Positions 3,003 to 60,464 of a DNA stretch of 60,464 bases are shown piece after piece. Origin of the DNA: a virus; the IMG/VR virus record IMGVR_UViG_3300037014_000313, positions 1-60,464 of that record. The stretch is one strand, 5' to 3'. The notes under the pieces are model-generated. The model had not been told where the DNA came from, ran no database searches, and worked only from the letters and a program-made list of their open reading frames with translations. Made by a program: the position numbers and the translations under genes. Within the stretch, counting starts at the first letter, position 1, and each line of letters opens with the position of its first letter.

Positions 3003-3581
3003 GTGAGAGTCCTGGTGGCGTGCGAGTTCAGCGGGATCGTTCGGGAGGCGTTTCGCATAATTGGGCATGAAGCATACTCATGCGACTTGCTGGCTACGGA
3101 GATTCCGGGGCATCACTACCAAGAGGATGTTTTTAGGGTTATTGACAAAGGTTGGGACTTGATGATTGCCCACCCGCCCTGTACGCACTTGGCCGTAAGC
3201 GGGGCGAGGTACTTCAGCCAGAAGCTGGAGAAACAGCTTGAAGCGTTGGAGTTTGTGCGAATGCTTCTTGATGCGCCGATCCCGCGTATCTGCCTTGAGA
3301 ATCCCGTGTCCATCATCAGCACCAGGATTCGCAAGCCGGATCAAATCATCCAGCCGTGGATGTTCGGTCATCCAGAGTCAAAGGCAACGTGCTTGTGGCT
3401 CAAGAATCTACCGAAGCTGAAGCCGACGAACGTCATTGAGAAGCCTTCATGCGGGCATTGGGATAACCAGACGCCGAGCGGCCAGAACAAGCTTGGGCCG
3501 TCACCGGACAGGGCGAAGAACAGGTCCAAGACGTACCGGGGGATTGCGGACGCAATGGCTAAGCAGTATGGCTGTCTCTGA
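3003..3581 (+). CDS. Second phage-type cytosine DNA methylase-like protein (192 aa)
   Basis: GTG start. MRVLVACEFSGIVREAF at the N-terminus is a Rossmann SAM-binding segment, AHPPCTHLAVSG carries the Pro-Cys motif IV, and ICLENPVSIIS supplies an ENP motif VI. RIRKPDQIIQPWMFGHPES and ATCLWLKNLPKL follow, as in many short phage C5-methylase-like proteins. It lacks the target-recognition domain of full-size enzymes. It may modify phage DNA, but activity is not proven for many of this class. It lies 17 bases after dcm. Confidence 0.8.
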   Translation: MRVLVACEFSGIVREAFRIIGHEAYSCDLLATEIPGHHYQEDVFRVIDKGWDLMIAHPPCTHLAVSGARYFSQKLEKQLEALEFVRMLLDAPIPRICLENPVSIISTRIRKPDQIIQPWMFGHPESKATCLWLKNLPKLKPTNVIEKPSCGHWDNQTPSGQNKLGPSPDRAKNRSKTYRGIADAMAKQYGCL

Positions 3582-3608: not shown

Positions 3609-3908
3609 ATGGGATTCATTGACGACGACAGCATGGTTCGGGTGGATTTCTTCAAGTGTGGAGGCGATGGAAGACCGCACAAGTGGTACTGCACGGAGGG
3701 GGTTAAATGGACGGGCGAGTACGAAAAAGAGAAGCAGCTTATTTACGATGCCTTTAAGAAATCACTTCGGGATCACCTGAAGGGGCGGCTCACCGGGATG
3801 GTTGCAGTCTGCCTTGAGCCGTGCCATGAATACATGTTCCCGTTGATAGCTTATGTGGATGACTTGGAAAATAACTCGAAGACAACGCCTCCCGCATCGG
3901 CGCGGTGA
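3609..3908 (+). CDS. Hypothetical protein (99 aa)
   Basis: ATG follows a GAAAGGGG site. The product is soluble and mixed alpha/beta (VRVDFFKCGGDGRPHKWYCT and YEKEKQLIYDAFKKSLRDHL). It has a few cysteines but no paired CxxC motif. No family was recognised. It is in the same rightward unit as the methyltransferases. Confidence 0.65.
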   Translation: MGFIDDDSMVRVDFFKCGGDGRPHKWYCTEGVKWTGEYEKEKQLIYDAFKKSLRDHLKGRLTGMVAVCLEPCHEYMFPLIAYVDDLENNSKTTPPASAR

Positions 3909-3987
3909 CTCGGAGGCTGTCACGGAACACGCGACCGATGCGGAGGCGATAAACTGAATTGGGGTTCTGACTCGTAAGTGAGGATTT

Positions 3988-4107
3988 ATGCTTGACGCAT
4001 GGTGGAAAGCGCATGAATTGGAAACGTACTTTGGGTTGGTATGTTTCGGCGTATGCCTTGTGCTGATGGTCGTGTGGATCGCCGTGGGGTGGAATCGCAA
4101 GACTTGA
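3988..4107 (+). CDS. Small single-pass membrane protein (39 aa)
   Basis: ATG after a GAGGA site. An amphipathic N-terminal stretch (MLDAWWKAHELETYF) leads into one hydrophobic segment (residues 16-34, GLVCFGVCLVLMVVWIAVG) and a short basic tail, the usual N-out/C-in arrangement. Such mini-membrane proteins are common in phage early regions. A holin-like, superinfection or host-takeover role is possible but unsupported. Confidence 0.55.
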   Translation: MLDAWWKAHELETYFGLVCFGVCLVLMVVWIAVGWNRKT

Positions 4108-4286
4108 GATATGCTGACTTTCTCTAGCCTCGCTCTTGAGGTGGGGAACGAAAGCCTCCCAGCCGGGGCGACCAGAAACGGTAGAAAGCGGGGCGAACAA
4201 CCTGTATTGTTACCGAACCAGATAGCCCCGCGCCCCGACTCGGGGGCTTGGGCTGTGTGCCAAAACAATTTCTTAAAGGAGGAACC

Positions 4287-4457
4287 ATGAACGCGAGGAA
4301 GACCAGGATCATCCGGCGCATGACAAAGGCGAAGTACGGGAACGGCTTCTATAGGCACGCGAAGCGTGCTTACTCCAGGCAGCCACACAACAAGAAGGAT
4401 GCGGCTGCGGCGTTCCGGACCGCGGCCAGTGAGCTCTTTACGCGCAGGAGGAAATAA
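4287..4457 (+). CDS. Small very basic protein (56 aa)
   Basis: It has a strong AAAGGAGG site six bases before ATG 4287. An in-frame start at 4248 is less likely because it lies ahead of this site. The product is rich in Arg and Lys (MNARKTRIIRRMTKAK), consistent with nucleic-acid binding. Its stop overlaps the ATG of the next gene (TAATG). No family recognised. Confidence 0.65.
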   Translation: MNARKTRIIRRMTKAKYGNGFYRHAKRAYSRQPHNKKDAAAAFRTAASELFTRRRK

Positions 4458-4720
4458 TGCCGCTAACGAAACCGGAGGATCATCGGATGAAGATCAAGAA
4501 GAAAGGGTTCATCACAGCCGTTCACTTCTACCGCAGCCTCGAGCAAAGTGCGGCCACCAGGACCTTGACATTTACGCCGGAGAAGCCTATCCCATTCCAT
4601 CGTGGATCATTGGTATCGGTGAACCTCAACACCGGCCACGTCAAGATCAACGGCAGGACGGTGGTCAAAGCCAGGATCAAGAACGCCGGCAACGCCAGCA
4701 TCGACGTCGCATGGGAATGA
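4457..4720 (+). CDS. Hypothetical small beta-rich protein (87 aa)
   Basis: The start overlaps the upstream stop, so translation is probably coupled; an alternative ATG lies at 4487. Alternating hydrophobic residues (GSLVSVNLNTGHVKINGRTV) suggest a small beta-barrel or OB-like fold. No motif allows a function to be named. Confidence 0.6.
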   Translation: MPLTKPEDHRMKIKKKGFITAVHFYRSLEQSAATRTLTFTPEKPIPFHRGSLVSVNLNTGHVKINGRTVVKARIKNAGNASIDVAWE

Positions 4721-4723
4721 ACC

Positions 4724-4984
4724 ATGACGAAGAACACAGGACGCTGCCAGCACCACGATCCCGATCACCCGTTCTTTGATGTCGCCAATGAGAAGGACAG
4801 GCGCCAGGATCAACGGCTGTCGGAGGGGATGTGCCCAAACCGGTGCGGACCCATGAAGAAGACGTCAGTCACCTCGGCGGTGTGCGGGTGCTGCCGGCTG
4901 AAGTGGGTGAGCATGAGGGTTGCTGTGGTGTGGGGGGAGAAGAACAAAATGAATGAGGACGCGGGACCTACGTTTTCTTTGTGA
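4724..4984 (+). CDS. Small Cys/His-containing protein (86 aa)
   Basis: It starts 3 bases after the preceding stop. CQHHDPDH near the N-terminus, then MCPNRCGPMKK and VCGCCRLKW, make a plausible zinc-binding unit. One of many small CxxC proteins in this genome. Function unknown. Confidence 0.5.
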   Translation: MTKNTGRCQHHDPDHPFFDVANEKDRRQDQRLSEGMCPNRCGPMKKTSVTSAVCGCCRLKWVSMRVAVVWGEKNKMNEDAGPTFSL

Positions 4985-5009
4985 TCGATTTTTTGGAAGG
5001 GAGAATGCC

Positions 5010-5438
5010 GTGGATGCCAACAAGTTTCCGGTGCTGTCCAACGAGGAGCTGAAGTCGGGTTTGGAGCGGTTGCCGTGCTGGAAGGACGCGGTGCTGATGG
5101 CGATCCTGGTGCCGTACTACAATCTCGTCGAGTTCAATGCGCTGTCGCCGAAGGATGAGAACGGGGGCAAGACCATCGCGGGCGTGCTCCAGCTCATGGG
5201 CCTGATCGAGCAGGATCTGTCGCGGCGGTTCAAGATGAGCGTCCGCGGGAAGCAGTTCATGCGGTGGGCGATCGACTCCAGGATCATCACCCCCTACGAC
5301 GGCGCCGACTTCATCGTGAAGTACGGTGGCGAGTTCGGGCGCCGGATCATGTACGACTGCGTGTTCGTGCCGTCGTCGACGCCGGCCATCCCCGATGACG
5401 TCAAAGCCGAAGTGGCGGCAGAAGTCTCCAAGGCGTAG
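5010..5438 (+). CDS. Hypothetical protein (142 aa)
   Basis: The GTG start at 5010 is chosen because GGAAGGGAG sits seven bases upstream; an in-frame start at 4953 would overlap the upstream gene and lacks a site. The protein is helical in its first half (ELKSGLERLPCWKDAVLMAI) and has a Tyr/Phe-rich C-terminal half. No known domain. It ends directly at the palindromic element. Confidence 0.65.
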   Translation: MDANKFPVLSNEELKSGLERLPCWKDAVLMAILVPYYNLVEFNALSPKDENGGKTIAGVLQLMGLIEQDLSRRFKMSVRGKQFMRWAIDSRIITPYDGADFIVKYGGEFGRRIMYDCVFVPSSTPAIPDDVKAEVAAEVSKA

Positions 5439-5612
5439 GTTGCGCAGGATTGTAACGACTTTGCGCAGAACGATAACAGAATTCGTTGAGAGAAAGACAG
5501 TCGACTTCCGAAACAGGATGGAGTCGAATTTTTCGACTCCGACCGAGCCCATCCTGAATCGGAAAGTGCGGAGCGTTTTCTCAAGTAATTCTGTTACGAT
5601 CCTGCGCAAAGT
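5439..5612. repeat. Long imperfect palindromic intergenic element, copy A
   Basis: The segment holds a copy of TTGCGCAGGATTGTAACGAC (5441-5460). A longer arm at 5460-5494 is inverted at 5576-5610; 28 of 35 positions match. Inner arms (CGAAACAGGATGG at 5509-5521; CATCCTGAATCGG at 5550-5562) and a central AGTCGAATTTTTCGACT hairpin complete a cruciform-like structure. About 80 bases of the left half align with the element at 44.3-44.6 kb. Origin, MITE-like element or regulatory site are all possible. Confidence 0.8.
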
Positions 5613-5670
5613 CGATGCAAAGTCGATGCGCGGCTCGGTTCGGAGCCGTATGCTTGGAAAGGAGGGGTAT

Positions 5671-6102
5671 GTGAGCGAGCACGTCTTTTTCATCGCCGGA
5701 AGGATCACGAGCGACAACAAGGGGCGCAGGATGCGCTGGCAAGCCCGCTACTCGAAGGAAAAGAAGGCACGAGAGGTTTGGGCCATACAATTCCAAGCGA
5801 TCGTTCCTAGGGCCATCCTGGTCGATTCTCCGCACCGTCCAAGGGCGATTACCCTCAAGGTCTTCAGGAATCGATCCCTCGACTGGGACAACCTCGTGGC
5901 CGGCCTTAAGCCGTTCATCGACGTCCTCAAGTGCAAGTTCTTCAAGGGGAGGACCTCTGACCCCAACATGCTGACCTGGAGGGGGGTCATCTACGACGAC
6001 AGCCCCAAGTACGTGACCTGGAATGTCCCACAGCGTACAATCCACCCATCCGAGGGTCCGTGGAAGGAGGAAGGCGTGGAAGTGAAAGTGGAGGGTATAT
6101 GA
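5671..6102 (+). CDS. rusA: RusA-like Holliday junction resolvase (143 aa)
   Basis: GTG 5671 follows AAAGGAGG; the frame is open further upstream through the palindrome but no better start exists. The motif LDWDNLVAGLKPFIDVL (residues 70-86) followed by GVIYDDSPKYV (105-115) gives the acidic residues D71, D73 and D109/D110 expected of RusA nucleases. It would cleave four-way junctions during phage recombination or before packaging. Its length is normal for the family. The next gene's ATG overlaps its last codon. Confidence 0.85.
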   Translation: MSEHVFFIAGRITSDNKGRRMRWQARYSKEKKAREVWAIQFQAIVPRAILVDSPHRPRAITLKVFRNRSLDWDNLVAGLKPFIDVLKCKFFKGRTSDPNMLTWRGVIYDDSPKYVTWNVPQRTIHPSEGPWKEEGVEVKVEGI

Positions 6103-6914
6103 GAGTCAGACCCAAGTTTAACGCCCTGGGGGATGAACTCGCCATGACCGCTGTCATCCGCGAGCTCAAACGCCAGCGGCCACAGGAAATGATCAGGCCG
6201 GAGCTCCACCGCCGCGAGCTCGTGGAGAACAACCCCCACGTCAACATCGGCATCACCGATGAGGGTAGGTTCGAGCTCGAGGTGCACATGAACGAGGACA
6301 TCGGGAACATCGCCCAATCGTTTGCCAAGCAGCTGGGGATGGACCCCCTGGTGGATGACACGCCGGAGGTGTTCCTGACGCCGGAGGAGATCGCGCGCGC
6401 CGAGGAGAAGCTTCAGGGCATCCCCATGCCGGTCGTCGCCATCGACACCCGGGCGATGTGGGAGTCCAGGAAGTGGGCGCAGGGCAACTTCCAAAGGGTG
6501 ATAGATGAGCTCGAGACCATCTCCTTCGTCGAGATGGGATCCGAAGGTGGCAGCCCCAGCCTGCTCAACAACACCAGGGCCTGCTTCGTCAACAAGTGCT
6601 CGATCAGGGAATCGGCGGCGATCATGTCCGAATGCGACCTCTTCCTGGGGAATGACTCGGGGGGCTTCCACCTTGCCGCCGCGGTTGGCACCCCACAGGT
6701 GGTCCTCTTCGGACCCAAGAAGTGGTATGCCAGGGGGTACTGGAACACGACCCCGGTCTACTCCTTCGAGAAGTGCGCGCCCAACTGCGAGTCCCTGTGC
6801 GGCCGCCGGCGTGAGGGGCCGGAGGGGAAGACCGACAACTGGTGCCTGGGCAAGATCAAGACCATGGCCGTTGAGGATGCGATCTTCCTCGCGCTCAAGC
6901 GCTTCCCGAAGTGA
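6099..6914 (+). CDS. Glycosyltransferase family 9-like protein (271 aa)
   Basis: Start at ATG 6099, overlapping the resolvase stop. The C-terminal half contains CDLFLGNDSGGFHLAAAVGT and PQVVLFGPKKW, the nucleotide-sugar-binding signature of GT9 (heptosyltransferase-like) enzymes. The N-terminal Rossmann domain is short (MRVRPKFNALGDELAMTAVI). A C-terminal Cys cluster (KCAPNCESLCG) is unusual. It overlaps the convergent GT2 gene by 20 bases. The target could be virion protein, DNA or a host glycan. Confidence 0.8.
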   Translation: MRVRPKFNALGDELAMTAVIRELKRQRPQEMIRPELHRRELVENNPHVNIGITDEGRFELEVHMNEDIGNIAQSFAKQLGMDPLVDDTPEVFLTPEEIARAEEKLQGIPMPVVAIDTRAMWESRKWAQGNFQRVIDELETISFVEMGSEGGSPSLLNNTRACFVNKCSIRESAAIMSECDLFLGNDSGGFHLAAAVGTPQVVLFGPKKWYARGYWNTTPVYSFEKCAPNCESLCGRRREGPEGKTDNWCLGKIKTMAVEDAIFLALKRFPK

Positions 6915-27682: not shown

Positions 27683-27814
27683 CTATCCGTACTGGATCAG
27701 CGTCAGGGCACCACTCCTTACGACGAGAGCATAGTCGAGGATGGGGCGCCCGCATTTCCTGCACGCGAGGAGGCCATCGATGAGCTCGATGGGCTCACGA
27801 TGCTCCTTGCACAT
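27683..27814 (-). CDS. Small zinc-ribbon protein (43 aa)
   Basis: ATG 27814 overlaps the upstream methyltransferase stop by one base (TGATG), so it is probably coupled. MCKEHREP and ACRKCGRPILDYAL give CxxH and CxxC half-sites. It resembles small zinc fingers found between portal and protease genes in Mu-like phages, where the Com regulator is also of this size, but the match to Com is not strong. Confidence 0.55.
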   Translation of the reverse strand: MCKEHREPIELIDGLLACRKCGRPILDYALVVRSGALTLIQYG

Positions 27815-29259
27815 CAGGCGAACTTCACTTCCAAGATCAAGACCTGGGGGTCTTTGGATCTCTGGATCCTTCGCGGCTCCTGGAACGGCTTCCATTCTTC
27901 CACCTTGTAGCAGTAGAGCTTTTTGTTGGTGTCGTCGAAGTTGACCGAGACCTGGTGCTCTGACTTTCTGCGCTCGAACTCGATCGGGGTGATCGTCTCA
28001 GGCTGCGACAAGACAATCTCCCCGAGAGCCATGGCGCCTTCAATGAGAAGCATGGTTCTCCCGGAGATGTCCATCTGCGACGTCTTCACGATCGCCTTCT
28101 TCTTGCCGTCGGCAATCATCTTCCCGTAGGGGGCTTTTAGGACGAGCCCGTTGATGACGTCGGGCTGCCCGTCTTCGTCCGAATACCACATCAGCAATTC
28201 AGAGAATTTGTTCTTGGGGTCGATCGGGAAGTTCGCGGCTAGGATCTCCGTCCTCTTCTTCCCACTCGTGCGGTGCTCGAATGATCCTGACTGGATCGGC
28301 GTCCTGACAAACTTGATCTCGAGCTTGCTCAGGCGCTCCCTGTTGCCGGGCGTGTCGTCATACGACACCATGACTTTGCCCTTGGTGCTCGAAGCCATCT
28401 GCGCGAACTTCTTGTGATCGAATCCCGTTTCTTCCAGGATGAGGGAGGGGTCGAGATCGCGCTCATACGGGGGGTCCATGTAAAAGAACGTGGACGGCGA
28501 ATCGTACTTCTTGATGACGTCCACGAAGTCCATATTCTCAACGATCACGTTGCGAAGACGCTCCACGTACTGGGGAAGCTTTCTCTCGAGCCAGCTCTTG
28601 CAGTTTTCGATCGTCTTGTCCGGCTTGAATCCGAATCGAAGCCCGGTGTTTCCCCGCGAGAACCTCTTCAGGTAGAAAAACCGGTAGAACCGCTTGGCCG
28701 GCGACAGCCTGGCGGGGTCGAGCGCCTTGACCTTCATGAAGTATTCTTTGTTGTTGTCCCATGGCATAGACAGGATTTCTTTCGCGTCTTTCCCGGTTGC
28801 GGTCTTAAGGAATGCGTACCCAGCCGCGATGTCAGGGTTCTTGTCGTTAAGCACCTCGCGCTTCGATGGCGTGGGCCTGTAGAAAAAGACTGCGGCGCCG
28901 CCGGCAAAAACCTCGACGTAGGTTTCGTGAACGGGGATCAGGGGAACAATGACGGGCGCAAGCCATCTCTTGCCGCCAGGAGAACCCCATGCGCCGGACC
29001 TCACACCACCTTCTGCGAAGATATCCGCCTCGAGGCCCAGTTCGTCCTCCATGTACTCGGACAGCATGGACATCTTTTTCATCCTGTCCATGAACTCGGC
29101 GTAGGTTTCCAAGCCTGGGACCCCCATCTCCTTCTTCATGCCGAGGACGCACTGCTCGAATTTGGCGTCACCCCAGCCGTGCTTCTTCTGCATGGCGCGG
29201 CACACGGCCCAGGGATTGACGCCAGATTCCTTGATCTTTTCCTTCTCTGAGTCGGTCAC
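27814..29259 (-). CDS. Dam-type adenine methyltransferase with extra N- and C-terminal domains (481 aa)
   Basis: Residues 13-46 (GVNPWAVCRAMQKKHGWGDA and a further Cys) resemble N-termini of phage head-cluster proteins. The D12-class N6-adenine methyltransferase core follows: WGSPGGKRWLAPVIVPLIP (motif X), EVFAGGAAVFFYRP (motif I, about 116-129) and FFYMDPPYE (motif IV DPPY, 262-265). After about residue 370 is an extra domain (GLVLKAPYGKMIADGKKKAI) that looks ASCH-like. Its place inside the head operon is unusual. Confidence 0.8.
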   Translation of the reverse strand: MTDSEKEKIKESGVNPWAVCRAMQKKHGWGDAKFEQCVLGMKKEMGVPGLETYAEFMDRMKKMSMLSEYMEDELGLEADIFAEGGVRSGAWGSPGGKRWLAPVIVPLIPVHETYVEVFAGGAAVFFYRPTPSKREVLNDKNPDIAAGYAFLKTATGKDAKEILSMPWDNNKEYFMKVKALDPARLSPAKRFYRFFYLKRFSRGNTGLRFGFKPDKTIENCKSWLERKLPQYVERLRNVIVENMDFVDVIKKYDSPSTFFYMDPPYERDLDPSLILEETGFDHKKFAQMASSTKGKVMVSYDDTPGNRERLSKLEIKFVRTPIQSGSFEHRTSGKKRTEILAANFPIDPKNKFSELLMWYSDEDGQPDVINGLVLKAPYGKMIADGKKKAIVKTSQMDISGRTMLLIEGAMALGEIVLSQPETITPIEFERRKSEHQVSVNFDDTNKKLYCYKVEEWKPFQEPRRIQRSKDPQVLILEVKFA

Positions 29260-37735: not shown

Positions 37736-39142
37736 TCAGCGCTCGTGTAGGAAGGGGCCGTCGACAGGAATGGCGCCGGGAAACTCCGAAAGGTCGGTTT
37801 CTGGATTGGGAACCCAGCGCTTGAACGTCCAGATTTTCGTGGCGTTTCCGAAGAACATCGCCCACCACGAGAAGGTGGAGTTCGACAGCAGCACGCGGTC
37901 GAACCGCCGGAGCATGTCCCAGGACGCCTTCGGCCCCGGGGCGGTGACGATGGGATCGTAGCCCTTGAAGGAGTCGAGGATCCCGGAGTCGATCGCGTCG
38001 GCCACGATGTGAAGCCGGCCGAATTTCTGCGTCTTGAGGATGTCGAGATACCAGGATGGGTGGATGATCCACCGCAAGCCGTTGTAGTCGCTGTCGACGC
38101 GGAGGTTGACGAGAATGTCGCGATGGTTGATCTCGTCTGCGGGCACGGGCTCGGGGATGAAGAATTTTTCAATCCTGTCCCGGCGGTCCCAGTACCACCG
38201 GCTCTGCTGGAAGAATCCCCAGAAGAGGACGCGCTCCTCCCTCGGGGGGGGGAACTTCGGCTGCCCCGGGGCCCAGTTCCTCGCCACCCATTCGCGCGCG
38301 ACCTCGAATCTGCGGCCTCCGCGCCATGGCTCGACCTTGACGATGCCTTCGCCGTCGAAGTAATTCTCCATCGACAGGTCGCGGTCCTCGGCGAAGATCC
38401 GCGCCATCGCGTACTCGAACATGCAGTTGCCGAACCGACCCTCGTACTTAACACCGACGTTGGGCTCGCCCTGAAGTGGGGCGCCGTACTCGGCGTGCCA
38501 GTGGCAGTCGCCACGGACGCCGGCGTCGGCGTACATCCTCGCCACGATCATGCTGTTCCGACGCAGGGAATCATCCACGCCCGTGGCGTAATGCGCGGAG
38601 CAGATGCTGCGGTCGTGAGGGATGTGCCGGAACCGGCGGTTTGAAATCGTGCGCGGACGCAGCAGCTTGCGCTTCGACAGGTACCAGCACATCTCGTCGT
38701 CCTCGTAGCCGTAGCCGTCGAATCCTGAGTAGCCGCGGGGGAGGATCTTCGAAGCCGGCGCGACGAGGATGCCGCCATAGCCTTCGATCCATTCCGATGC
38801 CGTGAAGAATTCGTCCTCGTTCAGCAACGGCGTGATCCAGGACATGAACTCGCCGGGATCGTTGAGAATGACGTCGGCGTCGAGGATGAGGATCCATTTC
38901 CCACGGGCTGCGAGAAGGCCCATGTCCAGCGCGTGCGATTTGTTGAAGACCGGCATCGCGCCGGTGCGGATGCAGACGGCGTCGGGAATGTTCTCGCGGC
39001 ACCACGAGTAGGTGCCATCTGGACAGTCGGCATCCACGATGACGTGCTCGAGGCCGGGGATGCCCTGAAGACGCAGGGCCGTGCGCTTCAGGAATTCGAG
39101 ACGGCCCTTGCACGCCGTGATGACGGACAGGATCGGCGTCAC
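37736..39142 (-). CDS. Two-domain glycosyltransferase: GT2-like plus fucosyltransferase-like (468 aa)
   Basis: Residues 1-200 begin TPILSVITACKGRLEFLKRT and include GKWILILDADVILNDPGEF (DxD) and SGFDGYGYEDDEMCWYL, a GT-A transferase. From about residue 235, YEGRFGNCMFEYAMARIFAE and LLSNSTFSWWAMFFGNATKI match the GT11 alpha-1,2-fucosyltransferase signature, though the usual HxRRGDY motif is altered to NLRVDSDY. It overlaps the upstream stop by four bases. It could build a disaccharide on a fibre or host glycan. Confidence 0.75.
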   Translation of the reverse strand: MTPILSVITACKGRLEFLKRTALRLQGIPGLEHVIVDADCPDGTYSWCRENIPDAVCIRTGAMPVFNKSHALDMGLLAARGKWILILDADVILNDPGEFMSWITPLLNEDEFFTASEWIEGYGGILVAPASKILPRGYSGFDGYGYEDDEMCWYLSKRKLLRPRTISNRRFRHIPHDRSICSAHYATGVDDSLRRNSMIVARMYADAGVRGDCHWHAEYGAPLQGEPNVGVKYEGRFGNCMFEYAMARIFAEDRDLSMENYFDGEGIVKVEPWRGGRRFEVAREWVARNWAPGQPKFPPPREERVLFWGFFQQSRWYWDRRDRIEKFFIPEPVPADEINHRDILVNLRVDSDYNGLRWIIHPSWYLDILKTQKFGRLHIVADAIDSGILDSFKGYDPIVTAPGPKASWDMLRRFDRVLLSNSTFSWWAMFFGNATKIWTFKRWVPNPETDLSEFPGAIPVDGPFLHER

Positions 39143-42023: not shown

Positions 42024-42107
42024 GGATCCAGGTCCCAATCCTGTCGGATACGTAGATGCGACCACTTTTCAATGAAGAACATTTCCTCTTTTTTAAGGAG
42101 CTGGCGC

Positions 42108-42386
42108 ATGGGCGTTTCCATGAAGGCCAAGTTCCTGTACCTGGACAGCGTTCTGGCATTCCGTGAGCATCAGGCTGACGTGATGTCCAATCTGGACGCT
42201 GAAGCGGTCAGGAATGCGGCGGCGGTGCTTCTGAAGGCGAGTCGGGACATCTCCCTCAAGATGGGGGAGGACATCAGCATCGTGGTGACGGCGACGGGGG
42301 GGCATAAGCACGTTGACTTCCGCAATGCCACAGTGGGGGTCCACAACCATCTTGGGGGCGTGATTCATTCCGAGACCATCCGTTAG
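42108..42386 (+). CDS. Small early protein (92 aa)
   Basis: ATG 42108 follows TTAAGGAG with good spacing. It is helical in the middle (SNLDAEAVRNAAAVLLKASR) with a His-rich C-terminus (GHKHVDFRNATVGVHNHL). Function unknown. Confidence 0.65.
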   Translation: MGVSMKAKFLYLDSVLAFREHQADVMSNLDAEAVRNAAAVLLKASRDISLKMGEDISIVVTATGGHKHVDFRNATVGVHNHLGGVIHSETIR

Positions 42387-42396
42387 GCAGTCACCC

Positions 42397-42414
42397 GGCC
42401 CACGGTCGTGGGCC
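42397..42414 (+). promoter_or_regulatory. Intergenic hairpin leader 1
   Basis: GGCCCAC/GTGGGCC with a 4-base loop, 11 bases after a stop codon and followed by GGATGATTCC and GAAAGGAG. It belongs to a family of hairpins before early genes. Confidence 0.6.
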
Positions 42415-42451
42415 TGGATGATTCCCTCCGGACTTTGAAAGGAGATGCGTC

Positions 42452-42589
42452 ATGTACAACCTCTGGATCGTTCTTCCATGCGGATGCATCCGCAACGTGT
42501 GGACAAAGGGCCGTCTTCTCGGCGATCTGTGCGTCAGTCTTCCGCATTCATTTTCCGCCACTGGTTTAGTCGCGACCCATTACCATTAA
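42452..42589 (+). CDS. Small MYNLWI protein, copy 1 (45 aa)
   Basis: ATG after GAAAGGAGATG. The first 20 residues, MYNLWIVLPCGCIRNVWTKG, are closely matched by the next gene, so the two are tandem paralogues with a shared CGC motif. The C-terminal half differs. Function unknown. Confidence 0.6.
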   Translation: MYNLWIVLPCGCIRNVWTKGRLLGDLCVSLPHSFSATGLVATHYH

Positions 42590-42613
42590 CAACCATTCCT
42601 TCAGGCAATCCCC

Positions 42614-42649
42614 CGGCCCACGTCCTGGCGATCACATCTTCGTGGGCCG
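42614..42649 (+). promoter_or_regulatory. Intergenic hairpin leader 2
   Basis: CGGCCCACG/CGTGGGCCG stem of nine pairs with an 18-base loop, followed by TGATGACTGCTTTTAAGGAG and the start of the next gene. It is very similar to leader 1. Confidence 0.65.
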
Positions 42650-42676
42650 TGATGACTGCTTTTAAGGAGATGGGAG

Positions 42677-42793
42677 ATGTACAACCTCTGGATCAGGCTG
42701 TCCTGTGGGTGCTCCAAGAACCTGTGGACCAGGGAGTATCAGATCTGCCGCATGTGTATGCCGTTTCCGATCATGCGCTATCCAATCTGGTGA
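42677..42793 (+). CDS. Small MYNLWI protein, copy 2 (38 aa)
   Basis: MYNLWIRLSCGCSKNLWTRE repeats the start of the preceding protein; it ends with a Met/Pro/Tyr segment with two cysteines (QICRMCMPFP). ATG follows TTTTAAGGAGATGGG. Too short for functional assignment. Confidence 0.6.
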   Translation: MYNLWIRLSCGCSKNLWTREYQICRMCMPFPIMRYPIW

Positions 42794-42875
42794 AGAATTT
42801 CCAATCGGGCGGCGAGCACCGAATGTTTCATCACCGGCCGCCGCCCCATTGGTGATTCTTTTAAGGAGATGGATC

Positions 42876-43259
42876 ATGTCCTGGACAGAGTTTCACGACA
42901 TGTCGAGCGGTGGCGGCTCGAAGGAGCCGTGGCGCCACATCGCCATCGAGGCCGTGGAGTCCGAGGCACGGCTGGTGTTCTGGCACAAGTTCGGACACAA
43001 CCCCGACCGTGTGACCTGCACCTGCTGTGGCCCCGACTACTCCGTGATGGAGTCCAATACTCTGGAGGACGTCACGGCGTATGAGCGCAAGTGCGAGTGG
43101 GACAACGACGCACAGGAGTGGGTGGAGAATCAGGACTCCATGCGGCTTGAGGAGTTCCTCTCGAAAGCCAAGGACTGGCTGGTCATCCGTGCGGTAGATA
43201 TCAAGCCCGAGGAGAGGGAAGGGGAAGTGCCCGTCCAAGGCTACGTCTGGCACGAGTAG
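42876..43259 (+). CDS. Hypothetical early protein (127 aa)
   Basis: ATG after TTTTAAGGAGATGG. Contains VTCTCCGPDYSVMESNTLED, giving a CxCC cluster, and an acidic C-terminal half. Soluble; no family recognised. Confidence 0.65.
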   Translation: MSWTEFHDMSSGGGSKEPWRHIAIEAVESEARLVFWHKFGHNPDRVTCTCCGPDYSVMESNTLEDVTAYERKCEWDNDAQEWVENQDSMRLEEFLSKAKDWLVIRAVDIKPEEREGEVPVQGYVWHE

Positions 43260-43281
43260 AAACTTTTTAAGGAGATGGATC

Positions 43282-43434
43282 ATGGCATGGCAAGTGAAGC
43301 GTGTGGTGTGTCCGGGGTGCAAGGGCATCAACTTCCTGAACATCAGGGACCCCAAGAATCCCGGCGTCATCGGGTCCAGGTTCTGTGCCGACTGCAAGCA
43401 CCAGTGGTCGGTGAAGCTGGTTCCGGCGAAGTGA
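43282..43434 (+). CDS. Small zinc-ribbon protein (50 aa)
   Basis: Start MAWQVKRVVCPGCKGINF, then FCADCKHQWSVKL: two CxxC knuckles about 20 residues apart, the classical zinc-ribbon. Strong TTTTAAGGAGATGG site upstream. May bind nucleic acid or RNA polymerase; role unknown. Confidence 0.65.
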   Translation: MAWQVKRVVCPGCKGINFLNIRDPKNPGVIGSRFCADCKHQWSVKLVPAK

Positions 43435-44291: not shown

Positions 44292-44562
44292 ACTTTGCGC
44301 TAGAATCCTACACCGCTTGGCCAGCCCAGCGTCAAGTTTGCGCAGAGTCGTAACGCGGTTGCGCAATCTCATCACAGAATTACTTGAGAAAATGGCAGTC
44401 AACTTGCGAAATGGGATGAGAATTTTTTCGGCTCCGGTTTCGACCAGACTTTTTTCTGGAGCCAAGTATGAGTTCGTCTTGCTCCGGCATTCTCTCAAGT
44501 AATCTTGTTACGGCTCCGCGCAAAGCCGCTGCAATCTCTGCACAACCCTGCGCAAAGTATCC
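44292..44562. repeat. Long palindromic intergenic element, copy B
   Basis: Contains TTTGCGC boxes at about 44294, 44338 (TTTGCGCAGAGTCGTAACG) and 44359, a left arm with ACAGAATTACTTGAGAAAA, a T-rich centre, and inverted arms (TCTCAAGTAATCTTGTTACG at 44492-44511; TGCGCAAAG near 44549). The left half aligns over about 80 bases with copy A at 5.46 kb, including GGCAGTCAACTTGCGAAATG. The gap from 44211 to 44684 otherwise shows no gene. Confidence 0.75.
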
Positions 44563-44684
44563 GCATTGTTCAAACGCTGTAAAACTTTTGTGTACGTTTC
44601 GGGGATGAGGGGGTCGTCGGCTCCATGCAAGTTCAAACAGAGTTCAGTTTCGGTTTTAACCACCTATCTTTTAAGGAGATGCGA

Positions 44685-51913: not shown

Positions 51914-52025
51914 CACGGCCGCGAATAGGGCCGGAGATCCGATCCGCCACGCCTATTGGTGTGGACAGTTCGTGGGGTTGCAACGGGCGATCGACATCGT
52001 GAAGCGAGAGACGGGGGTGATCTGA
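51831..52025 (+). CDS. Small basic protein ahead of the helicase (64 aa)
   Basis: ATG has AAGGAGAACGG upstream. MAKAKKKRNLNPTGLVNLFK, then a helical part. It overlaps the preceding gene by 83 bases in another frame and ends at the helicase ATG, suggesting coupling. Confidence 0.5.
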   Translation: MAKAKKKRNLNPTGLVNLFKDKRKIALDTAANRAGDPIRHAYWCGQFVGLQRAIDIVKRETGVI

Positions 52026-53437
52026 TGGAGATCGGCAGGCCTGCGCTCATGGAGCATCAGCGACAGGGCGTGGCGTTCCAAGCCGAGCAGCCGGCCGCGT
52101 ACCTGTGCTGTGACCGCGGGACCGGGAAGACGGCGATGGCGCTGGCGAACATGTCCGCGCTCGTGGAGAGGGGCCTGGTCAAGCGCATCCTCTACGTGGC
52201 GCCGCTGTCAACGCTCGACAACATCGTCAGGGAGGCGTACCGGTTCACTGACAACGTGAGGGCGCGCGCCGTCTTCGGCTCCAGGGTTGACAGGGAGCGG
52301 ATGCTGAAGAACCCCGGCGTCTACAACTGCGACGTCATCAACTTCGACGCCCTGCGCATCCTGCCGGAGGCGCTCACGGCCGTGGGCTACGACGCCATGG
52401 TGATCGACGAAGCCAGCCGCATCAAGGAGCGGCGCACCCAGGTGGCCCAGATCGCCATCCTCCTGGGCCGTCGCGCCAGGTATCGAAGGTGCCTGTCGGG
52501 GATGCCGTTCACCGAGGGCGTGGAGGACTTGTGGAGCCAGTTCTACTTCCTCGACGCCACGATCCTGGGCAACAACTTCTTCGGCTTCAGGAACAAGTTC
52601 TGCGTGATGGCGGAACGACGCAACTTCAAGACCGGCAAGAAGTTCCACACCATCGTGGGATACCACAACCTTGACGAGCTCGAGCGCAGGGTCAGCGGCG
52701 TCACGTTCAGGGTCAGGAAGGAGGACTGCCTGGACTTGCCGCCGAAGACGTACCAGGTGCTGAAGATCAAGATGCTGGAGGAGCAGGAGAAGGCGTACAG
52801 GCGCGTGATGAAGACCGAGTTCTCCGACATCGGCGACCACGAGATCACGCACGCGATGGCGCTGACCAAGATCGCCAAGCTCAGACAGGTCGCCGCAGGA
52901 TTCCTGTACGACGACGACCACGAGCCCGTGCTCGTGCCCACGGCGAAGTATGGCGAGCTTCGGGATCTCTTCACCGACACCCTGTACGGATCCAAGAAGA
53001 TGGTGGTCTTCACCGCGTTCAAGGCCGAGCCCGACATGGTGGAGGCCTGTGCCGGTGAATGCCAGAAGCCGATCAAAGTGTTCAGGCTTCCTGAGAACCC
53101 CGCGATCCGACAGAGCTGCGTCGACGCATGGAAGGCTTGGAAGCAGTCGCCGGCCATCCTCGTCGCCAACGTCCGAAGCGGAGGCACCGGCCTGAACCTC
53201 GAAGCCGCCGACACCGCCGTCTTCGTGTCGAACGACTGGAGGATGGAGGACCGGGTCCAGGCCGAGGACCGCATCCATCGCATGGGCAGCGAGATCCATT
53301 CCAAGATCACCATCGTCGACATCGTGACCGAGGACAGCGTCGAGGAGGACATCCTTCAGGCGCTGAAGGAGAAGAAGGATCTTGTGGACGTGTTCCTCTC
53401 GCGGATGAGGGGAGTGAAGAAAGGAGACGTGATGTGA
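52025..53437 (+). CDS. SNF2-like DEAD/DEAH-type helicase (470 aa)
   Basis: ATG 52025 overlaps the previous stop. CDRGTGKTAMA (residues 29-39) is Walker A and VIDEAS (126-131) the DEAx box. The second RecA lobe carries VRSGGTGLNLEAADTAVFVS and RVQAEDRIHRMGS (motif VI). Typical of phage SNF2 helicases that remodel forks or displaced strands. It may act with the primase-MCM protein. Confidence 0.85.
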   Translation: MEIGRPALMEHQRQGVAFQAEQPAAYLCCDRGTGKTAMALANMSALVERGLVKRILYVAPLSTLDNIVREAYRFTDNVRARAVFGSRVDRERMLKNPGVYNCDVINFDALRILPEALTAVGYDAMVIDEASRIKERRTQVAQIAILLGRRARYRRCLSGMPFTEGVEDLWSQFYFLDATILGNNFFGFRNKFCVMAERRNFKTGKKFHTIVGYHNLDELERRVSGVTFRVRKEDCLDLPPKTYQVLKIKMLEEQEKAYRRVMKTEFSDIGDHEITHAMALTKIAKLRQVAAGFLYDDDHEPVLVPTAKYGELRDLFTDTLYGSKKMVVFTAFKAEPDMVEACAGECQKPIKVFRLPENPAIRQSCVDAWKAWKQSPAILVANVRSGGTGLNLEAADTAVFVSNDWRMEDRVQAEDRIHRMGSEIHSKITIVDIVTEDSVEEDILQALKEKKDLVDVFLSRMRGVKKGDVM

Positions 53438-55104: not shown

Positions 55105-55902
55105 ATGACAGACCCCGCGTCGGAGAAGAAGGGACTGACCTTCTTCCAACAGATCGGAGGCGAGCTCTCCATCACGCCTGAGCAGCAGGCGGCTGTGGAA
55201 GAGATGCGGAAGGAGGGGCTGAAGGAGTCACTGGGCCTTCCGCTCGTCTACCCCAAGATCAAGCTGCTGCACCAGGACACGGCCGCATTCCAGTTCGTCG
55301 AGGAGGACGTGCTCGTCAAGTCCTTCAAGGCCATCATCATCGCCGTCGAGCCGTCACGGGTGTGGTGGCGGTCGAAGCTGGGGAGCGGAGAAGACGGGAG
55401 CGGTGGCATGCCCCAGTGCTTCAGCCGCAACCTCATCATGCCCGATGCCCAGGCCGAGGACAGACAGGCGCCGCGCTGTGCCGAGTGCTCCCAGAACGCG
55501 TGGGGCAGCGACATCAAGCAGGATGGAAGCCCCGGCCGCGGGAAGTCCTGCAAGGAGATCCGGCGCGTCTTCGTGCTGCCGGAGAACCACATGTCTCCGC
55601 ACTGGCTCGCGATTCCGCCGTCCTCTCTCAGGGCGCTGTCGAGCTTCATCATCTCCGTCGTGGACAAGGGCTTCAAGAAGCCCCAGGAGGTGGTGTGCAG
55701 CTTCTCCGCGAAGACGCAGGAGAACAAGGACGGCGTGAGCTTCTCCGAGCTCAGCCTGGCCTTGGGTGAGAGGGTTCCCGAGACCGTCTTGGCGATGATC
55801 GCCATGATGAAGAAGAACATCGAGAAGGTCTTGGAGACCGCGGCGCCGGTGTCGCAGGACGACTACTCCGGCAAGGAAGCCGTCCCCGGCGAGAACACCT
55901 AG
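55105..55902 (+). CDS. Conserved phage protein with zinc site, upstream of the primase (265 aa)
   Basis: ATG after CAAGGAGGAGCGC. The N-terminal VYPKIKLLHQDTAAFQF, the central QAPRCAECSQNAWGSDIKQD and GRGKSCKEIRRVFVL (three or four cysteines) match a conserved phage protein often found near replication genes. The C-terminus is helical. Exact function unknown; replication accessory is likely. Confidence 0.65.
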   Translation: MTDPASEKKGLTFFQQIGGELSITPEQQAAVEEMRKEGLKESLGLPLVYPKIKLLHQDTAAFQFVEEDVLVKSFKAIIIAVEPSRVWWRSKLGSGEDGSGGMPQCFSRNLIMPDAQAEDRQAPRCAECSQNAWGSDIKQDGSPGRGKSCKEIRRVFVLPENHMSPHWLAIPPSSLRALSSFIISVVDKGFKKPQEVVCSFSAKTQENKDGVSFSELSLALGERVPETVLAMIAMMKKNIEKVLETAAPVSQDDYSGKEAVPGENT

Positions 55903-56070: not shown

Positions 56071-56142
56071 ATGGCATCCAATCACAGGGACGGTCCATCC
56101 GCTGGGCCGAGAAGGGAGGTCGATGCAAGGGTTCAGGTCTGA
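56071..56142 (+). CDS. Possible 23-residue leader peptide
   Basis: ATG 56071 has a very strong GGAAGGAGAAATCC site and encodes MASNHRDGPSAGPRREVDAR plus three residues. Its stop lies 17 bases inside the primase start. It might regulate primase translation, or simply be chance. Confidence 0.3.
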   Translation: MASNHRDGPSAGPRREVDARVQV

Positions 56143-59100
56143 GTACGTCTACGTCGACGTACATTCATCGGCGCAGAAGCAATGGCGCCGGGTCAAGATC
56201 GACCAGGTCGATGAGAAGCTGCTGAAGCCATCCAAGAACTTCAAGTGCTTCAAGTCGGTGCAGCGCTACAACAAGGCGCACGCCGAGCCCGGGGAGCACG
56301 TGTGGATGCCGCTGTTCTTCGATCTCGACAACGAGAAGGATCCCGGCATCACCATCGACGACGTCAAGAAGCTGTACGGATACATGACCGAGGTCCTGCA
56401 GATTCATCACCACTTCGTGAGGATGTACTTCAGCGGCAAGAAGGGATTCCACGTCGTCATCGAGCCGGAATGCTTCGACATCAGGCCGCACCACGAGATC
56501 CATCTCAAGATCAGGAAGGCGGCGCTCAACATCTCCGAGCATCTCGACCTGAAGACATTCGACTCCAAGGTCTACAGCGTCAGGCGGGTGCTCAGGATCC
56601 ACAACAGCATCCACGAGGGCACCAAGCTGTTCAAGATCGAAGTCAGCCTCGGCGATCTCGCCAAGGGCATCGACTTCATCAAGGAGAAGGCGAAGCGGCC
56701 ACAGGAGGACGTCACGCCGGAGGAACCCAGCGAGGAGGTCTCAATCTCCCAGGAAGCAAAGGAGTTCTGGGACGGCATCAGGCTTGAGGTCGAGGAAGCG
56801 GAGGAGCTGTCCAACCTCAAGCCGGACCACATGATCCATGACTTCGGCGAGCTGCCGGTGTGCATCAAGCACATGCTGTCGCTGCCGGCTCTGCCGACAT
56901 CCCACTCCGGCAACCGCACCATCCTGTCGCTGGCCGCCTACATGAAGGACATCGGCTGGACGGAGCAGAAGACCGTGGAGACGCTCGTGCCGTGGCTGGT
57001 CAAGCTTCCGAACATCGGCAACGCCGGCAACCCGAAGGCCATCGAGGCCGGCGCCAGGGCCACCATCGCCTTCGTCTACAGGAAGTCCACGGACGACAAG
57101 GGCGATCGCTACCACTTCGCGTGCAAGTACATCCTCGCGCTGTCAACGCCTGATCACAAGATCCCGTGCCAGAACGTCCAGTGCCCGGCCGTGAAGGGCA
57201 AGATGCAGGAGACGAAGGAGACCATCGATCTCAGCCTCGATGGATTCTCGAAGTCCATCTACCTTGGCGAGAAGGTGAGGGTGCCGACGCTCATCAGCGG
57301 AAAGGCCGGCACGCCCTACGTCGTTCCCAAGCGTGTCCGCTTCACCTGTCCTCCGGATGAGGATGGCGAGTTCTGCAAGAACTGCCCCATCGCGCAGTTC
57401 AACGGCGAGGCCAGCTTCGAGTTCGACGTCAAGGACCCCGAGATCCTGGAGATCGTGAACACATCCAACAAGTTCCAGTGGGAAGCCATCAGGAGGAAGT
57501 TCAGGTTCCCACCAGCGTGCAGCCGGTGCAAGACCAGGGTCGAGGAGTACATGAACATCGAGGAGGTGCGGATGTCGCCGGCGGCTGTTGACGTCAGCGA
57601 CTTCCAGAAATCGGAGTTCGTCAACCGCAAGGGATTCTTCATCGGCTATCCCCTGCAGTCGAACAAGCGCTTCATGGTGACAGGGTTTCCGGTGAAGGAT
57701 CCGAAAACGCAGACGTCGGCGTTCCTGTTCCAGGAGCACGAGAAGCTCGAGACCGAGATCGAGACCTTCACGATGACGCCTGAGATCAAGGCCGAGCTCG
57801 AAGTCTTCTGCGCCAAGGAAGGAGATGTCGAGGGCAAGTTCGAGGATATCCACAACGACCTTTCCACGAACGTCTACCGCATCTGGAATCGACGCGACCT
57901 CGCATGGGCCGCGGACCTCGTCGTCCATTCCGTGAGAGGATTCAAGTTCAGATCGGAGCCGTTCGTCAAGGGATGGATCGAGCTCCTGGTTGTGGGTGAC
58001 TCCGGACAGGGGAAGACCGCTTGCGTGCGCCGGCTCGTGCAGGGCCACTACAAGGTCGGAGAGTACGTCAGCGGCGGCGCCAGCAAGCGCACAGGCCTCC
58101 TCTACTCCTACCAGGAGAACGGGAAGACGTGGATGCTGATCTGGGGTGCCATGCCCCTGAACGATCTCGGACTCCTCGTCGTCGATGAATTCGGCGACAT
58201 GGCCGAGGAAGAATTCGCGCTCATGACGGACGTGCGATCGAGCGGGATCGTGAAGGCCGTAGGAGTCGTCACCGCCGAGACCTTCGCCAGGGTGCGCTTG
58301 ATCGCGCTGTCGAATGCGAAGAAGGGCAAGCACCTGGCCGAGTACGATCTCCCGGTCGTCGCCATCAAGGAGCTCGTGCCGGCAGCGGAGGATATCAGGA
58401 GATTCGACTTCGCCCTCTGCGTGGCGTCAGGAGAAGTCCCCGTCGAGACCATCAACAGGGCCGACTTCGAACACGTCCACCACGTCTACACGTCCAGCCT
58501 CTGCCGCAACCTCATCAGGTGGGCGTGGTCGCGCAAGGAGACAGAGGTTGAGTTCACCGACGGCGCGTCGAAGTTCATCCTCCACGAAGCCACCAGGATG
58601 GCCAAGGACTTCTACGCCGGCGACATCCCGCTCGTGGAGCCCGCGGACCAGAGGTTCAAGCTCGCACGACTGGCGGCTGCAGCCGCCGCACGCGTCTTCT
58701 CCACCGATGAGAAGGGCGACAAGATCGTCGTCAAGGAAGAACACGTTGGCTTCATCATGGGACTGCTGTACGAGATCTACAACAACCACAACTTCAAGTA
58801 CGGTGAGTGGTCGCGGACGCAGAGGAAGACGGAGTCGTCTGGAGTCGAAGACCTCAGAGGCTGCCTCGACCGCATCATGGACCTTCCGCAATGGAAACGC
58901 ATCTTCGGTCTCCTGACTCTTCCCGGCCAGATTGACGGCCGCGAAGTCGAAGGCGTCATGAGCGGCGACAGATCCAAGTCCTCCCAGGTGCTGGCCCTGC
59001 TACGAATCGTCGGCCTCGTCGAAAAGAAGTGGGGCAAGTACGCAAAGACGTCGAAGTGCAATCAGCTCGTGAGCTGGGCATTCTTGAATGGACATGTGAA

Positions 59101-59194
59101 GAAGGAAGACATCGAGCGCGAGATGATGGGGCCCGGTGGCGCACTTTCGAATCCCACCGGGCAGAAGACCTTTGAGGAAGGAGGCGATCGATGA
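56123..59194 (+). CDS. Archaeo-eukaryotic primase fused to MCM-like AAA+ helicase (1023 aa)
   Basis: N-terminus: FFDLDNEKD (D67, D69), MYFSGKKGFHVVI (H110) and FDSKVYSVRRVLRIHNSIHE (D147, R154-R158), the DxD, sxH and third motif of PriS-type primases. Centre: zinc knuckles (CPP...CKNC near 409 and CSRC near 467). C-terminal AAA+ region: GDSGQGKT (625-632), LLVVDEFGDM (DE 688-689), and EDIRRFDFAL (R759-R760), matching the MCM arginine finger IRRFD/SRFD. It would prime and unwind phage DNA. No other replicative helicase, primase or polymerase is recognised. Confidence 0.8.
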   Translation: MQGFRSEYVYVDVHSSAQKQWRRVKIDQVDEKLLKPSKNFKCFKSVQRYNKAHAEPGEHVWMPLFFDLDNEKDPGITIDDVKKLYGYMTEVLQIHHHFVRMYFSGKKGFHVVIEPECFDIRPHHEIHLKIRKAALNISEHLDLKTFDSKVYSVRRVLRIHNSIHEGTKLFKIEVSLGDLAKGIDFIKEKAKRPQEDVTPEEPSEEVSISQEAKEFWDGIRLEVEEAEELSNLKPDHMIHDFGELPVCIKHMLSLPALPTSHSGNRTILSLAAYMKDIGWTEQKTVETLVPWLVKLPNIGNAGNPKAIEAGARATIAFVYRKSTDDKGDRYHFACKYILALSTPDHKIPCQNVQCPAVKGKMQETKETIDLSLDGFSKSIYLGEKVRVPTLISGKAGTPYVVPKRVRFTCPPDEDGEFCKNCPIAQFNGEASFEFDVKDPEILEIVNTSNKFQWEAIRRKFRFPPACSRCKTRVEEYMNIEEVRMSPAAVDVSDFQKSEFVNRKGFFIGYPLQSNKRFMVTGFPVKDPKTQTSAFLFQEHEKLETEIETFTMTPEIKAELEVFCAKEGDVEGKFEDIHNDLSTNVYRIWNRRDLAWAADLVVHSVRGFKFRSEPFVKGWIELLVVGDSGQGKTACVRRLVQGHYKVGEYVSGGASKRTGLLYSYQENGKTWMLIWGAMPLNDLGLLVVDEFGDMAEEEFALMTDVRSSGIVKAVGVVTAETFARVRLIALSNAKKGKHLAEYDLPVVAIKELVPAAEDIRRFDFALCVASGEVPVETINRADFEHVHHVYTSSLCRNLIRWAWSRKETEVEFTDGASKFILHEATRMAKDFYAGDIPLVEPADQRFKLARLAAAAAARVFSTDEKGDKIVVKEEHVGFIMGLLYEIYNNHNFKYGEWSRTQRKTESSGVEDLRGCLDRIMDLPQWKRIFGLLTLPGQIDGREVEGVMSGDRSKSSQVLALLRIVGLVEKKWGKYAKTSKCNQLVSWAFLNGHVKKEDIEREMMGPGGALSNPTGQKTFEEGGDR

Positions 59195-59969: not shown

Positions 59970-60464
59970 TGCCGACGAAGGAAGACTACGAGTACGTCAA
60001 GGAACTAAAGGAGCAGATTGAGAGCATGAATTCGTGTCACCAAGGCACAGTCGCGGAACTCGTTGGAATGACCTACGACCGCGACCGCCTCCGCGCCCCG
60101 AACGAGGAGATGCTGGGGATCGTGGAAGCCGTTGGCGAGATGTTGAGGACGAGCAAAGCCATGGGGAAACTGTGGAACGCCGTGGACTGGAACACTGATC
60201 TGGGGGACAAAGACCCGGCGCTGGCCGCTTACAACGCGGCTGGTGAGGCGCACACGGCGGCGTGGGACAAGATGGAGGCCCTGTACAAGGCGTGGACCAT
60301 CGCCAAGGCCGAGGCGCAGACTAGTTCTAACGTGAAACATATTTGCGGCGATCCAAGTTCGTCCTGCGATACGAGTTGCGAGGAAAACGCGGCCCGTGGC
60401 AGGGAAATCATGAACCGCCCGACAGCCGCCGACGCGCTCAAGGCGGTGGCTTGTCTGTGCCAAG
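59969..60464 (+). CDS. N-terminal part of the joint-spanning hypothetical protein
   Basis: Starts MPTKEDYEYVKELKEQIESM, a helical opening; joined across the redundancy it ends at base 367 for about 203 residues. The single difference between the two copies changes Ile to Val in NVKHICGD/NVKHVCGD. Confidence 0.75.
   Translation, partial: MPTKEDYEYVKELKEQIESMNSCHQGTVAELVGMTYDRDRLRAPNEEMLGIVEAVGEMLRTSKAMGKLWNAVDWNTDLGDKDPALAAYNAAGEAHTAAWDKMEALYKAWTIAKAEAQTSSNVKHICGDPSSSCDTSCEENAARGREIMNRPTAADALKAVACLCQ
60214..60464. repeat. Terminal direct repeat, right copy
   Basis: Matches bases 1-251 with one mismatch (A at 60341, G at 128). See the left copy. Confidence 0.95.

Follow-up and report, generated by a model that had tools for sequence, protein, structure and literature searches.

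A divergent BcMCM-type primase-MCM protein in a tailed-phage genome without a recognisable DNA polymerase, and a second primase type among its MCM relatives

Introduction

The best-known primase-MCM fusion so far comes from a single Bacillus prophage. Reviews outline that an AEP-MCM fusion has been known from a Bacillus phage genome since 2005 and was characterised as BcMCM (PMC4538821, PMC5862659, PMC3973330); the primary studies cited in PMC4538821 are McGeoch and Bell 2005, Samuels 2009 and Sanchez-Berrondo 2012. As summarised there, an integrated prophage of B. cereus encodes BcMCM, which has reported activities as helicase, primase and DNA polymerase and prefers dNTPs (PMC4538821). Bacteriophage MCM helicases and their links to AEPs have been reviewed (PMC5862659), and the presence of a PriS-PriL fusion in phBC6A51 has been noted (PMC3973330).

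Other systems share parts of this architecture. PolpTN2 of the Thermococcus plasmid pTN2 combines PriS and PriL-like parts, with four Fe-S cysteines, in one chain but, unlike the protein described here, has no MCM module (PMC3973330). The PrimPols of S-2L (PMC8065100) and NrS-1 (PMC8718748) join an AEP to a helicase-like domain in phages that, like the one analysed here, have no other detected or conventional polymerase. Their helicase parts are not MCM: that of S-2L is viral hexameric helicase/VirE-like (PMC8065100), and that of NrS-1 is a ring-forming domain called unique (PMC8718748).

We analysed a 60,464-nt stretch of DNA (IMG/VR record IMGVR_UViG_3300037014_000313; hereafter the window) from a virus of bacteria, in which an initial annotation had recognised a primase-MCM fusion.

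Results and Discussion

A two-part primase and an MCM helicase in one chain

The gene, whose coding score is by far the highest among the called genes of the window, and its protein are organised as follows.

56123-59194, + strand: primase-MCM helicase ORF (ATG start, 1023 aa)
56123-56692, + strand: PriS-like AEP catalytic domain, aa 1-190 (FFDLD, SGKKGFH, D147/R155/R158; PriS profile and structure matches)
56735-57187, + strand: PriL-like helical domain, aa about 205-355 (four invariant cysteines; PriL and PF04104 profile matches)
57275-57757, + strand: beta-rich MCM-type N-domain, aa 385-545 (C409, C421, C424, C466; alignment and model)
57827-58702, + strand: MCM AAA+ motor, aa 569-860 (Pfam, PDB matches, alignment, model and profile), with Walker A at 625, Walker B at 684, sensor-1 N731, arginine finger R760 and sensor-2 region R844/R849
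58799-59092, + strand: C-terminal helical/winged-helix-like region, aa 893-990 (predicted secondary structure: helices followed by a pair of strands)

PHROG 18685 spans aa 5-991 (E 1.7e-144). Read from the N-terminus, the chain has a PriS-like AEP domain followed by a PriL-like domain with four cysteines; after these come an MCM-type N-domain, the MCM AAA+ motor and an end that resembles a winged helix. The fusion of primase and MCM in one ORF is borne out by Pfam MCM, PriS/PriL profiles and structural matches. All five motifs quoted in the initial annotation were located, starting at aa 65 (FFDLDNE), 104 (SGKKGFH), 625 (GDSGQGKT), 684 (LLVVDEFGDM) and 756 (EDIRRFDFAL), and they do not reflect chance similarity. 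The third AEP motif, described there as Arg/His, is also present, although it is composed of D147 together with R155/R158, which are invariant in 15 homologues.

At the primase end, D67, D69, S104, G105, H110, D147, R155, R158 and K171 are invariant across the 15 homologues. A profile of these homologues matched Sulfolobus (Sso) PriS over the catalytic part (E 2.9e-5) and, over the part that follows the PriS-like region, eukaryotic PriL from E 0.007. The weight of the assignment comes from the homologues: Pfam DNA_primase_S is present in 14 of the 15, while the window protein's own AEP match (E 0.0027) lies under the gathering score; similarly, DNA_primase_lrg (PF04104) is found in 13 of the 15 and is weak in the window protein itself. 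The top structural matches of the N-terminal model were PriS chains, the best being PriS of 1zt2, with modest scores (E 1e-4, TM about 0.4). Four cysteines of the PriL-like region (C247, C334, C349 and C354) are invariant in the 15 homologues and are probable PriL-type 4Fe-4S ligands, which would imply a bound cluster.

The MCM assignment of the C-terminal half draws on several lines of evidence. Pfam MCM scored 45.3 bits over aa 613-740 (E 7.5e-12), where the cut-off is 23.3, and 57 of 58 phmmer matches in the PDB were MCM proteins, the exception being the last and weakest (E 0.64). A 59-row alignment shows conservation of the Walker A and B motifs, of sensor-1 N731 and of the arginine finger R760; its profile matched archaeal MCM proteins (E about 1e-15 to 1e-16). 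From this alignment we obtained an AlphaFold model (mean pLDDT 86), which in a structure search gave MCM in all 50 listed PDB matches (best E 8.4e-23). The initial annotation had proposed looking for the helix-2 insert and the presensor-1 hairpin; the model predicts hairpins for both, at 661-666/669-674 and 709-712/718-721, respectively, aligned to the corresponding positions of Sso MCM. SF3 helicases are frequent AEP partners in plasmids, for example in pRN1 ORF904 (PMC3973330), which makes an SF3 or other non-MCM AAA+ module the natural competing assignment. Against it stand the structural matches listed, MCM without exception, the Pfam MCM score, with no match to SF3 models, and the two hairpins; we regard this assignment as next to impossible and rejected it.

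A divergent member of a known family

By tblastn, the window protein matched 71 phage records, and dozens of phage records label relatives of its MCM part 'DNA primase/helicase'. Full-length AEP-MCM relatives with a helicase upstream are encoded by the isolated tailed phage vB_BboS-125 of Bacillus (gp46, MH884509) and by Bacillus velezensis plasmid p3 (NZ_CP079100). Both are 31% identical to the window protein and differ from the window in having PolA directly downstream. More broadly, the AEP-MCM proteins of the Bacillota elements examined are about 30-31% identical to it, and PolA was present in every large record searched. BcMCM of the B. cereus provirus phBC6A51, compared by its published description, likewise joins an AEP, with PriS and PriL-like parts, to an MCM helicase. 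No near-identical phage was found by megablast of window bases 1-24000. We therefore assign the protein to the phage primase-MCM family of BcMCM type, in which it is divergent, with ~31% full-length identity to the others.

Since the architecture is known from BcMCM and from full-length phage and plasmid relatives, it is not new. The initial annotation, which had considered such a fusion noteworthy in a tailed phage, was right about identity and overstated novelty; it overlooked the PriL-like domain as well as the exchange of primase among relatives.

Two members of the family carry intein-like insertions. In the primase-MCM of a Candidatus Fermentibacteria MAG (L102, 4644-8828), the insertion lies in the MCM Walker A, after GDSGTGK, and ends VVTHN-S. 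In a 175 kb contig (L050, about 3900-5416), it lies immediately ahead of the AEP motif SGSKGFH.

Two primase types on one phage MCM

The nearest MCM modules, from IMG/VR (38-41% identity), have a different N-terminus from that of the window protein, and the MCM proteins of Microbacterium phage Krampus and Bacillus phage BSP7 also begin differently. The 'DNA primase/helicase' proteins of Krampusvirus, BSP7, Youna2 and IMG/VR share the same MCM module (28-41% identity), but their N-terminus is a CHC2 zinc finger plus TOPRIM, of DnaG type, and their genomes contain PolA or DnaE. With local profiles, the relatives examined fall into an AEP or a CHC2/TOPRIM class with zero overlap, three 5'-truncated proteins excepted. 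Pfam CHC2 and/or Toprim scored over the cut-off in nine of ten examples, with L069 below it. No TOPRIM signal was detected in the window protein by Pfam or local profiles, and its N-terminus is not of the CHC2-TOPRIM type.

A tree of the MCM part requires two changes of primase type, in a count that leaves out L084, which is truncated at its 5' end. A single change was not rejected (p-AU 0.489 and 0.221). The window forms a long end branch (about 1.2) in this tree; the protein with the highest identity to the window's MCM (43% over aligned columns) has a TOPRIM primase, yet that of the window protein is AEP. Because the nearest MCMs carry CHC2-TOPRIM, we infer that primase type was exchanged at least once, in either direction, on one phage MCM. 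Within this family the primase is an exchangeable module, its place being taken in close MCM relatives by a CHC2-TOPRIM primase of DnaG type. We found no direct report of CHC2/TOPRIM-MCM fusions in the open-access literature.

These data place primase-MCM fusions in one phage MCM family that is common in metagenomes and in which the primase end has been exchanged for a non-homologous one. Such an exchange offers a natural test of what the MCM requires from its primase. Together with the absent polymerase described below, it is the less ordinary feature of the system, and both merit follow-up.

An apparently complete genome without a recognisable polymerase

The tailed-phage setting described initially is supported by genes for terminase, portal, head protease, major head protein and tape measure protein, from which we infer a long tail; no tail sheath was recognised among the window genes. 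The replication side is encoded on the + strand and the structural block on the - strand. Listed next are two genes upstream of the primase-MCM gene and the repeats that the ends of the window share.

52025-53437, + strand: SNF2/SF2 helicase of the same module (Pfam, PHROG; relatives likewise have an upstream helicase)
55105-55902, + strand: 265-aa protein upstream of the primase-MCM gene, function not assigned (PHROG 23155/27714)
1-251, no strand: terminal direct repeat, left copy, 250/251 identical to 60214-60464
60214-60464, no strand: terminal direct repeat, right copy, 250/251 identical to 1-251

Relatives have an unannotated protein at the position of the 265-aa neighbour; as four aligned sequences share only 22-24% identity, we do not claim an SSB identity for it.

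The repeat copies differ by a single mismatch, at position 128. A 203-aa ORF with a good coding score crosses the junction when the window ends are closed, and the closed size of 60.2 kb falls within the about 53-65 kb of relatives. On these three grounds the genome is probably complete.

Six-frame scans of the entire window found no match to PolA, DnaE or PolB, and Pfam/PHROG scans of its called genes gave no DNA polymerase, DnaB-type helicase or TOPRIM primase, in agreement with the initial annotation, which had recognised none of them. Within the family, 36 of 39 genomes or contigs encode PolA (24) or DnaE (12 others). The three with neither, all of AEP type, are the window, the 100 kb contig of L082 and the 175 kb contig of L050. 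PolB matches are also lacking in all three; the two contigs lack terminal repeats and may be fragments.

A phage polymerase could have been missed, either by being too divergent or because a polA segment was lost through false closure at the 251-nt repeat. PolA occurs in 24 of the 39 family records, in several of them near the primase-MCM gene, which in the window is separated from the contig end by just 1.3 kb, and the one-base difference between repeat copies would also fit a false closure. Nevertheless, the closed size matches relatives, the well-scoring ORF runs through the junction, the six-frame scans gave no polymerase candidate, and most of the large unassigned ORFs belong to the block of structural and tail genes on the minus strand. 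We therefore consider a missed polymerase improbable, if worth keeping in mind.

Proposed role in genome replication

Given the domain composition, the conserved catalytic residues, the synteny with an upstream helicase and the absence of a recognisable polymerase, we consider it highly likely that the protein is a BcMCM-type replication protein that combines MCM unwinding with in-line priming and leaves bulk synthesis most likely to a host polymerase. The MCM motor would assemble into a hexameric ring on phage DNA and use ATP hydrolysis for unwinding, the in-line PriS/PriL-like primase would prime the single strand so exposed while the fork advances, and a recruited host polymerase would carry out bulk DNA synthesis. 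Host polymerase is the most likely agent because PolA, DnaE and PolB are all missing from an apparently complete genome; its recruitment is the simplest reading of that absence alone. Calling the protein the core replication engine of the phage, as was done initially, is a reasonable reading of synteny.

A role in repair or restart by repriming, rather than in genome replication, is very unlikely. Although PMC4538821 mentions a suggested role of BcMCM in restart, the window protein is the sole recognised helicase-primase in a small phage genome, and the homologous genes of relatives are located in replication modules close to polymerase genes.

The AEP might instead be a true primase-polymerase that copies the whole genome, uniting helicase, primase and polymerase in one polypeptide. 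Many phages borrow a host polymerase, which counts against this reading, as does the lack of an identified proofreading partner. AEP-type relatives retain a nearby PolA, and an AEP therefore does not remove the need for a polymerase. In its favour, the genome is terminally redundant and has no other polymerase, and the L082 and L050 contigs, likewise of AEP type, are without PolA/DnaE, although both, with no terminal repeats, may be incomplete. The polymerase activity and dNTP preference described for BcMCM in PMC4538821 agree with it, and cyanophage S-2L (PMC8065100) and phage NrS-1 (PMC8718748), whose PrimPols are thought to copy the genome, are precedents. Weighing both sides, we regard whole-genome copying by the AEP as rather unlikely. 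Slightly more speculative still is the combined proposal that AEP and DnaG-type primases are interchangeable on one phage MCM and that, in a polymerase-less AEP branch, the 1023-aa chain serves as helicase, primase and polymerase. A member without a phage polymerase lends itself well to the question whether an MCM replisome can run on a bacterial host polymerase or on its AEP alone.

Other features of the window

An element of ~210 nt with internal dyad symmetry occurs in two noncoding gaps, at 5435-5645 and 44330-44565. It contains the motif CAAGTAATTCTGTTACG...TGCGCAA in both orientations; CAAGTAATTCTGT matches four times against 0.31 expected. The copies flank the structural block and are candidate replication origins or operators.

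Three DNA methyltransferase genes belong to different PHROG families (1393-2985, 3003-3581 and 27814-29259), the third lying within the head gene block. Glycosyltransferase-like genes at 6099-6914 (family 9) and 37736-39142 (family 2) possibly serve DNA or virion glycosylation. Finally, a 26-nt segment that includes a ribosome-binding site and start codon (TTTTAAGGAGATGG..ATG) is present five times in 42091-43290, before small genes, which suggests gene duplication or a shared leader.
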